Positions 15,422 through 18,244 of a stretch of DNA of 64,000 nucleotides are shown here, in pieces (position 1 is the stretch's first letter; every line of letters starts with the position of its first letter). The stretch spans positions 4,216,001 through 4,280,000 of the forward strand of contig NZ_VFPG01000001.1 in NCBI RefSeq assembly GCF_006716565.1, read 5' to 3'. This DNA is from Nocardia bhagyanarayanae. GTDB taxonomy: Bacteria; Actinomycetota; Actinomycetes; Mycobacteriales; Mycobacteriaceae. The position numbers and the translations under genes are program-made. The notes beneath the pieces are model-generated. The model was not told the DNA's origin and ran no database searches. It saw only the letters and a list, made by a program, of their open reading frames with translations.

Positions 15422-16006
15422 ATGGCGCGCACCAAGGAATTCGACCCAGATGTCGTCTTGGAGCTCGCCATGGATCTGTTCTGGGAGCGCGGGTTCGAAG
15501 CGACTTCGATGTCCGATCTGGTCGAGCATCTCGGCATAGGCAAGGCCAGCATCTACGCCGCTTTCGGTTGCAAACACGAACTGTTCAGCAAGGCGCTGCA
15601 ACGCTATCTGCAACTCGCCGACGAGCGGATCACCGGCGCGCTCTCCCAACCGGGCCCGGCCGTACCCGCCATCCGAGCGCTCCTCGGCCGTTTCGTCTCC
15701 GAAGCCTGCGACGAACACCGCTACCTGGGCTGCCTGGTGTCCAATACCGCCGTCGAGCTCGCCGCCCGAGACCCCGAGATCGCCGCACTGGTCGAATCCG
15801 GCTGGGCAAGCTGGGAAACCATTTTCGCTTCGGCGTTCGAGCGCGCCCAGGCGCAGGGCGAACTGGCGGCCGACCGCGACCCACGTGCGCTGGCCCGGTT
15901 CCTGCTGGTCTTCCTCCAGGGCGTCTGGGTCTTCGAGCGCACGCCCAACGCCGCCACCCGCCTGCGCGACGCCAGCGAAATGGTAGCGGCGTTTCTGTTC
16001 GGTTAG
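15422..16006 (+). CDS. TetR-family transcriptional regulator
   Basis: 194 residues. The N-terminal HTH (MARTKEFDPDVVLELAMDLF, then TSMSDLVEHLGIGKASIYAAFG) is classic TetR. The C-terminal ligand domain contains RYLGCLVSNTAVELAARDPE, as in the AcrR/YxaF-like subgroup. A palindrome directly upstream suggests autoregulation. The next gene on the strand is the methionine-rich mini-protein, 179 bp away. Whether it belongs to the regulon is unknown. Confidence 0.9.
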   Translation: MARTKEFDPDVVLELAMDLFWERGFEATSMSDLVEHLGIGKASIYAAFGCKHELFSKALQRYLQLADERITGALSQPGPAVPAIRALLGRFVSEACDEHRYLGCLVSNTAVELAARDPEIAALVESGWASWETIFASAFERAQAQGELAADRDPRALARFLLVFLQGVWVFERTPNAATRLRDASEMVAAFLFG

Positions 16007-16185
16007 CCCACGCCGGATCGGAGCCGCCGTATCCCTCGAGCCGCATCTCGCAAACATCCCACCAATCGACTGACTGCGGGAGTCCCGAGCCGGTAGTTCG
16101 GCGCCGAAATTTGCCGCATATTCGCGGCGATCATGGGTAGGCGGCATCTGATCGACGATTCGCGGGACCCGAGGAGGTGATCGCG

Positions 16186-16272
16186 ATGATGATGCCCGGT
16201 ATGTGCATGCAGATGATGGACATGTTCATGGGTCTGCTCAACATGCTTCCCGGCATGCCGATGATGATGTGA
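16186..16272 (+). CDS. Ultra-methionine-rich 28-residue protein
   Basis: Twenty-eight codons, of which 14 are ATG. It begins MMMPGMCMQMMDMFMG and ends MLPGMPMMM, with one Cys, one Gln and one Asp. A near-perfect ribosome site, GAGGAGGTGA, sits five bases upstream. The TGA is followed 17 bp later by a strong hairpin terminator. The two ends mirror each other (MMMPGM and PGMPMMM). Methionine thioethers bind Cu(I)/Ag(I), and the whole chain could form one amphipathic or membrane helix. A metal-binding or oxidant-scavenging role is inference. I recognise no family. Confidence 0.75.
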   Translation: MMMPGMCMQMMDMFMGLLNMLPGMPMMM

Positions 16273-16289
16273 TCACTGGAAAGAATCGG

Positions 16290-16317
16290 CCTCCAGGGCG
16301 AATCAGCACCCTGGAGG
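16290..16317. terminator. Bidirectional hairpin between Met-rich gene and Fe-S regulator
   Basis: CCTCCAGGG (16290-16298) pairs with CCCTGGAGG (16309-16317) over a 10-base loop. It lies between two convergent genes and can serve both. Confidence 0.75.
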
Positions 16318-16335
16318 TCGTTGCCCGAACGGCCG

Positions 16336-17031
16336 TCAATCCGTGGTGGAGTGCAATTCGACGCAGCATTCGCCCGCGCGCGGCACCAGTGCGGCTCGCA
16401 CGCTCGCGGCCTCCAGCCCGGTCAAGACACCGGAGAGGAAGGCATGGTTGAGACCGCACACCAATTCCGGCGCGGTCTGCGCCAGTGGATGGAACGGGCA
16501 ATTGCGCAGCCGGACGCAGGACGGGGATTCCCGGCTCGGTTCGAAGCCGTACTCACCGAGCAGGCTGTGCACGAGGGTGAGCGCACGCTCGGTACTCAAC
16601 CGACCGGGTTTGACGCGATCCCGCTCGGCGCGCCCGATGTCCGCACCGCGACGGCCGGCGACCCGCATCGCGGCGTCTCGGGCCGTCTCGTCGGCGCCTT
16701 CACCGAGAACGGCGTCCATCAGGATCTCGGCGAGCACTTCGTAGCGGCGCTCCGGGATGCTCACCCGAACGTCGACGTCGGTGGGCTCGTAGACCTTGGG
16801 GGCGCGCCCGACACGTCGAACGCCGCCGACCGCCTCGTAGTGTGCGCGCAACAATCCGGCGTCGACGAGCTTGTCCAGATGGAACGCGGCCAGCTTCCGC
16901 GAGATCCCGACTTCGGCGGCGGCCTCGTCGCGGGTCACCGGATGGTGGGCCCGCCGGATGAACCAATACATGCGCCGCCGCAGCTCATCGTCGAGTACGG
17001 CGACCGCGCCGATGGCCGATTCAGTGGTCAC
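16336..17031 (-). CDS. Winged-helix regulator with C-terminal cysteine (Fe-S-type) motif
   Basis: 231 residues from GTG 17031. The N-terminal HTH (VTRDEAAAEVGISRKLAAFHLDKLVDAGLL) resembles the COG2345/SufR group. The C-terminal part carries cysteines in SCVRLRNCPFHPLA, then LVCGLNHAFLSGVL and ECCVEL. This C-x5-C...C-x2-H pattern fits an iron-sulfur or metal-sensing site. It converges on the methionine-rich mini-protein gene and is divergent from the membrane protein/folE pair. Redox or metal control of either neighbour is possible. Confidence 0.8.
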   Translation of the reverse strand: MTTESAIGAVAVLDDELRRRMYWFIRRAHHPVTRDEAAAEVGISRKLAAFHLDKLVDAGLLRAHYEAVGGVRRVGRAPKVYEPTDVDVRVSIPERRYEVLAEILMDAVLGEGADETARDAAMRVAGRRGADIGRAERDRVKPGRLSTERALTLVHSLLGEYGFEPSRESPSCVRLRNCPFHPLAQTAPELVCGLNHAFLSGVLTGLEAASVRAALVPRAGECCVELHSTTD

Positions 17032-17228
17032 GCGACCACGATACGCCAATTCGAGCAGTTTTTATGGGGCAGGCAGCACGATGATCCAGGTGCTTGACCT
17101 CCGTCACGAATAACGCCAATAATCGTTGGCGAAACTACGAACGGGAGCCCGGATGGTCGACGACACCGCTCGAGCCGCCGGATTCCCACGCTGATATCGC
17201 CTTCCCACCTCATCCGCAGGAGCACATC

Positions 17229-17648
17229 ATGGGCATCGCAGCACTGATCACCTGGCTGTTGACCGCGGGCGGCGGCTCGGTCCTGCTCGCCACCTGGATC
17301 GCCAAAGGCGGCGCGCGACAACCAACCGCCAGCCACCTGCCGCCACCGGTCGTCTTCGGTCACTTCCTGCTCGCCGCGGCAGGACTCGTCGTCTGGATCG
17401 TCTACCTGGTAGCGGACGCCACGGCGCTGGCTTGGATCGCGTTCGCCCTGTTGGTCCCCGTCGCCGCCCTCGGATTCGCCATGCTCCTGCGCTGGCTGCC
17501 GGTCTACCGCGCCCGCACGGCCAATGCCGGCGACTCCGCTCCGCCGGAACGGCACTTCCCGGTCGCGATCGTCGGCGCGCACGGCGTCCTGGCCGTCACC
17601 ACGGTGGTCCTGGTCCTGCTCACCGCCCTGGGCATCGGAGCCGACTAG
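17229..17648 (+). CDS. Four-helix integral membrane protein
   Basis: 139 residues from ATG 17229, with an AGGAG ribosome site. Four hydrophobic helices are evident, at about residues 4-25, 43-65, 68-88 and 113-136. The loop before the second holds a PPPVVFGHFLLAAAG block, seen in actinobacterial DUF2269-like proteins. It ends 2 bp before folE, so the two are co-translated. Function unknown. Confidence 0.78.
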   Translation: MGIAALITWLLTAGGGSVLLATWIAKGGARQPTASHLPPPVVFGHFLLAAAGLVVWIVYLVADATALAWIAFALLVPVAALGFAMLLRWLPVYRARTANAGDSAPPERHFPVAIVGAHGVLAVTTVVLVLLTALGIGAD

Positions 17649-17650
17649 AC

Positions 17651-18244
17651 ATGACCCGCGCCGCCCTCCGCGTCGTTCACGACCACACCACCCTCGATCT
17701 GGACGCGGCCGAACTCGCCGCCCGGGATTTCCTGCTCGCGCTCGGCGTCGATCTCGACGCCGATCACCTGCACGCCACCCCCGGTCGCATGGCTCGCGCC
17801 TACGCCGAGCTGTTCACCTCTCGCCCGTTCGACCTGACCACCTTCCCCAACGACGAGGGCTACGACGAGCTCGTCCTCGCCCGCCGAATCCCGTTGCGGT
17901 CGGTGTGTGAGCACCACCTGCTGCCGTTCGTCGGTATCGCCCACGTCGGGTATCTACCCGGCCAGCGCATCCTCGGGCTGTCCAAGCTCGCCCGCATCGT
18001 CGAGCACTTCTCCCGCCGCCCGCAGGTCCAGGAACGACTCACCAAACAGATCGCCGACTGGCTCGCCGAGCACCTGCAACCCAAGGGCGTCGGGGTCGTC
18101 ATCGAAGCCGAGCACACCTGCATGACATTGCGCGGCGTGCAAGCGGCCGGCGCCACGACGGTCACCTCCACCCTGCTGGGCAGCTTGCGCGAAGATCCCC
18201 GCTCGCGTCAGGAGTTCTTCGCCCTCACCGGCATCGCGCCCTGA
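17651..18244 (+). CDS. folE: GTP cyclohydrolase I
   Basis: 197 residues, the size of a bacterial GTP cyclohydrolase I core. It converts GTP to 7,8-dihydroneopterin triphosphate in folate/pterin synthesis. The zinc and catalytic motif SVCEHHLLPFVG (Cys86, His88/89) is intact, as is the second half-site EHTCMTLRGV. HATPGRMARAY and LSKLARIVEHFSRRPQVQERLT are family blocks. It is separated from the usual folate genes and paired with a membrane protein, so it may be a second paralogue used for another pterin product. Confidence 0.95.
   Translation: MTRAALRVVHDHTTLDLDAAELAARDFLLALGVDLDADHLHATPGRMARAYAELFTSRPFDLTTFPNDEGYDELVLARRIPLRSVCEHHLLPFVGIAHVGYLPGQRILGLSKLARIVEHFSRRPQVQERLTKQIADWLAEHLQPKGVGVVIEAEHTCMTLRGVQAAGATTVTSTLLGSLREDPRSRQEFFALTGIAP

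Follow-up and report, generated by a model that had tools for sequence, protein, structure and literature searches.

A methionine-rich mini-protein gene

In the window, the whole 64,000-nt stretch of Nocardia bhagyanarayanae DNA analysed here, an open reading frame (ORF) on the plus strand at positions 16186–16272 encodes 28 residues followed by a stop codon. Its translation is MMMPGMCMQMMDMFMGLLNMLPGMPMMM, and 14 of the 28 residues are methionine, as an earlier note on this DNA had reported. A Shine–Dalgarno sequence, AGGAGGTGA at 16172–16180 on the same strand, is well spaced from the ATG at 16186, in agreement with the perfect ribosome site that the note described. Further upstream on the plus strand lie a −35-like GCAT (16116–16119) and, 15 nt after it, a −10-like GGGTA (16135–16139); this is the sole match of its kind in the window, where 0.2 would be expected. 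The gene is preceded on the plus strand by that of a TetR-family regulator (15423–16006, inferred start; longest ORF from 15347), which had been named as such and matched PF00440 and PF16925. It is faced from the minus strand by the gene of an HTH_20 regulator with a Cys-rich C terminus (16336–17031; PF12840; start inferred, longest ORF to 17049). Beyond the latter, two plus-strand genes that recur near the peptide gene elsewhere encode a 139-aa membrane protein, here TM139 (17229–17648; no Pfam match, DUF2269 family in some database names), and the GTP cyclohydrolase I FolE (17651–18244; a neighbour at 4 of 60 loci).

The half-methionine composition of the peptide is not a product of chance. 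The window contains 734 ORFs of 20 aa or longer; the runner-up among them had a methionine fraction of 15% (first residue excluded), and the top ORF in 40 Markov-resampled windows had 19%. Together with the relatives described below, these figures uphold the claim that the ORF is a real mini-protein gene, which we consider well supported.

A terminator-like hairpin (about 16287–16320) lies between the convergent genes, beginning 14 nt past the stop codon of the peptide. Folding z scores were −3.3 for 16270–16330 on the plus strand and −2.6 for the 70 nt past the stop. The T-rich tail beside the hairpin is on the minus strand, and the hairpin therefore suits the facing gene no less than the peptide gene; of the proposed terminator after the peptide gene, the structure stands but its assignment to that gene is shared. 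Within 70 nt past the stop, hairpins with z < −2 were found at 10 of 33 loci, compared with 1 of 33 for a control stretch 400 nt further on. In combination with the promoter described below, this suggests that the peptide is transcribed as a single-gene unit at some loci at least.

Relatives are concentrated in Nocardia

The earlier note had named a lack of conservation in related genomes among the findings that would refute it, and relatives were found. A first search with the peptide in 60 related genomes gave nine with matches at E ≤ 1, real in the own genome and five others, and a pattern search gave 39 matches, of which 16 were confirmed as family loci, all in Nocardia records. A profile search of 150 Nocardia genomes then returned 52 genomes at E ≤ 0.1 with 63 places. 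Discounting G123, in which the match sits within another reading frame (L103), and counting the split copy of G127, found as two pieces, once, leaves 51 of 150 genomes with 60 intact copies and one split copy. Outside these, an earlier profile gave four matches in 397 genomes of the order and a search of 394 genomes of the class also gave four, with two convincing matches, both in Nocardia, in each case. The family search, covering 401 genomes, gave 24 matches at E ≤ 0.05: 18 in Nocardia and one in another genus (G554) were convincing, and five were not. The G554 peptide is MMWPQMMAMFRTWWNHMFPMWPM, with its own GAGGAGGTGA. Sampling beyond the genus was thin, and short peptides are easily overlooked by such searches. 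Several candidates (L007–L009, L105 in G528, L115 and L119–L121) were dropped as chance matches or non-members on reading the sequence, and two genomes (G801, E 0.008; G273, E 0.096) by score alone. Pattern searches of viral contigs gave 41 and 25 matches, none confirmed by tblastn, and thus no confirmed phage copy.

Most carrier genomes have a single copy, the distribution being patchy and some genomes multi-copy. In Nocardia sp. NBC_01503 the peptide is encoded three times, by two identical copies on a plasmid and one on the chromosome (L060–L062); on the plasmid, NZ_CP109597.1, the peptide lies near 84446–84517, and an ECF-type sigma factor is annotated near one plasmid copy. The split copy in G127 is interrupted by an insertion of about 2.2 kb (L101, 5780–8100), whose ORFs resemble an IS21-type IstA/IstB pair. 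The sole non-Nocardia member has on its 5′ side an ORF of 456 aa that looks membrane-like, contains several His residues and has no Pfam match (L116, 1–1368).

The family is under coding selection

We examined 58 copies (57 of the 60 fetched contexts and the window), with start codons picked by script. They represent 48 distinct peptides of 22–34 residues with a mean methionine fraction of 40%; among the forms are that of the window and also MPGMCMQMMNMLRDMWNMMFPSMPM. The ribosome site is conserved, a matching run of at least 7 bases being found in 48 of the 58 copies and one of 4–6 in the other 10. Overall, methionine makes up 39.7% of residues, compared with 6.4% for Leu, Ile and Val combined. 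In the alignment four positions (Met, Pro, Met, Met) are invariant in 48/48 peptides and others nearly so: Q in 47, R and N in 45 each, F in 44, and W and the Met preceding F in 43 each. Cysteine occurs in 18 of the 48 and is absent from 30; His and Lys occur in none of the 48. The window subfamily (window, L094 and L097) is an outlier that lacks the Arg and Trp conserved in most others.

Next, substitutions were compared with the expectation for the same changes placed at random, using 23 of the 58 copies. In the five subfamilies, observed/expected synonymous changes were 8/2.1, 33/7.9, 78/22.0, 16/5.3 and 7/2.4, an excess of about 3–4 fold, and the corresponding non-synonymous changes were 4/12.7, 20/58.2, 70/149.7, 19/33.8 and 11/16.1; as pairs within a subfamily are related and non-independent, these figures are read as ratios and not as p-values. 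Selection therefore acts on the protein. The coding sequences of the window and L097 are 88% identical, whereas their 120-nt flanks are 59% and 53% identical (shuffled sequence, 53%); for the window and L094 the values are 99% for coding sequence and 76% and 75% for the flanks. Together, these results demonstrate that the Met-rich peptides form a genuine protein-coding gene family. A spurious ORF, to which the absence of the peptide gene from one annotated record with an incomplete gene table might point, is in our view already refuted by the coding selection; the relatives in about a third of the Nocardia genomes, the outlying methionine content and the invariant positions argue against it as well.

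No family in the databases searched accounts for these peptides. In Pfam, three families matched at E 0.029–0.093, each to one of 33 members, and none matched more at E 0.1; NCBIfam had no match for the window peptide, the best PDB match had E 0.91 and was not meaningful, and three Rfam matches around the gene were all below the gathering score. Judged by titles and the starts of abstracts among the literature matches listed, no such peptide was described.

Stress-type promoter elements accompany the gene

Reducing the 58 upstream regions to a non-redundant set left 32, of which 23 contain GGGTA 37–55 nt before the start codon (one with a second, distal copy) and nine lack it; in 500 rounds of Markov resampling the mean was 3.0 and the maximum 7 of 32. 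GCAT, noticed by eye before counting, stands exactly 15 nt 5′ of GGGTA in 12 of the 23, whereas nine other spacings, which served as control, gave 0–1. The more general GNNT is found at 15 nt in 16 of 23, and GTTN at 14–15 nt in 7 of 23. Across the 60 contexts (1.88 Mb, both strands), 19 GCAT-N15-GGGTA sites stand at the peptide and two lie elsewhere: before the DUF305 gene of L071, and 4.9 kb downstream of the peptide in L051, where the gene behind it resembles that of the gas-vesicle protein GvpA. In the own genome this form gave 11 matches compared with 12 for a reversed control, and thus defines no broad regulon there. GTTT-N15-GGGTA, in contrast, occurred 28 times in the contexts and window compared with 0 for its reversed control, which suggests that promoters of the SigF type are widely used. 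The operator of the CsoR/RicR copper regulon is a TACCC-GGGTA palindrome, of which the upstream sequences, judged by eye, contain the GGGTA half only.

The G554 copy has GTGT-N15-GGGTA, and a site of that form is also found ahead of DUF2231 in L067. In L055 and L057 a Cys-rich protein, which we take to be of the copper-storage type, is encoded about 3.7–4.7 kb downstream of the peptide behind GTTT-N15-GGGTA; in L057 this protein is DUF326.

Excerpts of published work give the SigF consensus of M. smegmatis as GTTT-N14–19-GGGTA, with catalase and hemerythrin genes in the regulon (PMC4694148), and the SigB-type −35 of S. coelicolor as GNNT, as in SCO0566p, where GCATAA, 14 nt and GGGTAT place the −10 element 16 nt from GCAT (PMC8346170). 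The peptide promoter resembles these in its GGGTA, its G..T −35 element and its spacing of about 15 nt, and differs in that GCAT is the commonest −35 element here and, in the fetched contexts, is nearly private to the peptide family. We conclude that the peptide gene has its own promoter-like elements of the sigma-B/SigF stress type; this is well supported, and such a promoter for this family is new here. A sigma factor of that group, we infer, reads it; in the own genome four sigma factors score above the SigB/F/G cut-off (TIGR02980).

Neighbouring genes vary between loci

The regulators next to the window gene, which the earlier note had proposed to look for beside it in other Nocardia genomes, rarely accompany it elsewhere. 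Of the 60 loci, only L094 has a relative of the TetR gene near the peptide, and full-length HTH_20 relatives are found at three (L054, L067 and L087; tblastn E ≤ 1e-10). Both are thus context and not a conserved pair with the peptide. The facing regulator had been called Fe-S-type, at most a putative assignment: it does face the peptide gene and its C terminus is Cys-rich, but an NCBIfam metalloregulator model matched it only far below the cut-off, and its sole match among solved structures was a weak one to the HTH. A cluster of the HTH_20 regulator, (DUF2231), TM139 and FolE recurs in Nocardia (window 16336–18244; L054 and L067).

DUF2231 and/or TM139 genes lie within about 2 kb of the peptide at 17 of 60 fetched loci as well as in the window, in four gene arrangements and four peptide subfamilies. 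Peptide–DUF2231–TM139 accounts for 11 loci, largely one inherited arrangement; DUF2231–TM139–FolE–peptide, or part of it, was found at four (with partial matches in L087), TetR–peptide followed by TM139 in the window and L094, and peptide–DUF2231 in L097. The own genome has three DUF2231 genes, and TM139 has 3,292 relatives at E ≤ 1e-5. DoxX-type proteins are encoded near the peptide in L051 and L067.

Copper-type genes, detected by a motif scan of roughly called genes, lie within about 8 kb at 13 of 60 loci, or 15 if two doubtful P-type ATPase flags (L073, L093) are included; Pfam was run on four such contexts (L057, L047, L071 and L050). In one group the order is TetR–peptide–DUF305, with DUF305 directly downstream, DUF326 nearby and a P-type ATPase some kilobases away; in a second, a CopA-type ATPase and HMA proteins are encoded 4–8 kb from the peptide. 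DUF305 was identified in L071 and MerB in L050. We do not take the copper link as proof because the copper-type genes fall into about three independent contexts, a number that chance alone could, by our estimate, yield within 8 kb.

What the peptide may do

The reading that we rank first, tentatively and as a possibility only, is that the peptide is induced by stress, folds as an amphipathic Met helix with a PxMPM tail and uses its thioethers to handle the soft metals Cu(I)/Ag(I); the metal role, already suggested in the earlier note, is the part that we infer, together with membrane association. A stand-alone micro-protein gene would be transcribed from its own sigma-B/SigF-type promoter (GCAT or GTT-type, 14–15 nt, GGGTA), a near-perfect ribosome site serving its translation. 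Its product would be a short amphipathic helix with a hydrophobic face made largely of Met, with Trp/Phe, followed by the PxMPM tail, and probably stays inside the cell, as no signal sequence is seen by eye. Under stress, three invariant Met residues, aided by Trp/Phe in most members, may provide a thioether site at which Cu(I)/Ag(I) binds; the peptide, perhaps located at the inner face of the membrane or bound to a membrane partner, would buffer the soft metal. The helical hydrophobic moment exceeded that of shuffled sequences (p < 0.05) in three of five representative cores, but not in the other two, which speaks against the helix. A single-sequence AlphaFold model of the 31-residue frame 16177–16269 predicted a helix over peptide residues 3–20 and a loose tail (mean pLDDT 78, pTM 0.36), and for such a composition says little past helix propensity.

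If a greasy face were all that mattered, ATG codons should drift to Leu/Val codons in a GC-rich genome, and the retention of Met over Leu/Ile/Val suggests that thioether chemistry is favoured; Met itself, beyond mere hydrophobicity, seems to be kept in the family. Three invariant Met near Trp/Phe resemble a soft-metal site in kind, and the DUF305, DUF326, CopA-type ATPase, HMA and MerB genes at some loci are consistent with this. Against metal handling, most loci lack a copper-type gene and the contexts that have one may be coincidental, Cys is absent from 30 of 48 peptides and His from all, the window subfamily is without Arg and Trp, several conserved non-Met positions exceed the needs of a plain metal sponge, and the arrangements in which the DUF2231/TM139 cluster recurs outnumber those of copper genes. 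This last point favours the reading ranked second, which we consider somewhat unlikely: an amphipathic Met/Trp helix that binds the membrane or a DUF2231, TM139 or DoxX-like protein and tunes it under stress, with Met as a flexible hydrophobic surface and no metal ligand. The DUF2231/TM139 neighbours at 17 of 60 loci, with only three DUF2231 genes in the own genome, and the DoxX-type neighbours at two loci would fit, and the conserved Q, R, W, N and F with the PxMPM tail suggest a specific surface. Yet 43 of 60 loci have no DUF2231/TM139 relative in the fetched stretch, 11 of the 17 that do largely share one inherited arrangement, so that the link may mean a shared stress island only, and a general hydrophobic face would permit more Leu, Ile and Val than is found.

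An oxidant sink, in which Met residues are sacrificed to oxidants under oxidative stress and then restored by Msr enzymes, comes third and seems improbable: the Met enrichment and a SigF-type promoter, whose M. smegmatis regulon includes catalase and hemerythrin genes in the excerpted text (PMC4694148), agree with it, but a sink needs bulk, whereas four positions are invariant and a 28-residue peptide is small unless very abundant. We give still less credence to a regulatory leader peptide, in which ribosome stalling at the Met codons or at the FPxMPM end would control a downstream gene. The ORF is short, has a strong ribosome site and is followed by a hairpin at 10 of 33 loci, and in some groups the next gene is on the same strand (DUF305 in group a; DUF2231 in group b and L097). 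However, about half of the loci have a convergent gene next (30 of 61 rows including the window, by a rough ORF caller), the downstream family is not constant between groups and none named is Met-related, and conservation of the amino acids extends over most of the peptide, beyond any stall motif. Very unlikely indeed is a membrane-active toxin of type I kind or a mobile-element peptide: the patchy, sometimes multi-copy distribution, the identical plasmid pair and the copy split by a mobile element recall one, but in most carriers the gene occurs once, purifying selection acts on both protein and promoter, and the helix, examined by eye, carries Q, R/D and N and has no all-hydrophobic membrane-spanning stretch.

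If soft-metal handling is correct, the peptides constitute a family, so far undescribed, of proteins unusually rich in Met, found in a genus that comprises soil bacteria and opportunistic pathogens; they also raise the question whether thioethers alone, in a fixed pattern, make a biological Cu(I) site or a stress buffer. In its strongest form, which we regard as rather doubtful, the peptide would be a stress effector of a new kind: an intracellular thioether micro-protein of 22–34 residues, as much as half of them Met, in which three invariant Met and nearby aromatics would make a complete Cu(I)/Ag(I) site without Cys or His, its own variant (GCAT) sigma-B-type promoter travelling with the gene to other locations, plasmids included. 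The promoter, the ribosome site and Q...M.R..WN..FPxMPM together provide a search signature for genes too short for the usual gene finders.

Comparison with known systems

Bacterial copper metallothioneins such as MymT are very small, cytosolic and sulfur-rich, and the Nocardia peptide is like them in size and sulfur content and probably in location. It differs in offering thioethers in place of thiolates, the Cys-rich ligand set of the MymT type being absent from a family in which only 18 of 48 peptides have any Cys, and in its conserved W, N, Q, R and PxMPM. The Met/Trp Cu(I) site of CusF belongs to a folded protein of the periplasm; the peptide shares with it a Met-x-Met motif close to Trp that could provide Cu(I) ligands, but is short and has no known sequence relation to CusF. 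SpoVM-type micro-proteins, of about 26 residues, combine an amphipathic helix with expression from an alternative sigma factor, and the peptide resembles them in size, predicted helix and apparent sigma-factor type, whereas its hydrophobic face is dominated by Met and, by appearance only, sequence similarity to SpoVM is not evident. The copper proteins of the DUF305/CopM type (PMC4335983) form a separate and larger family; one of their genes lies directly downstream of the peptide in one group, and in L071 has the same form of promoter.
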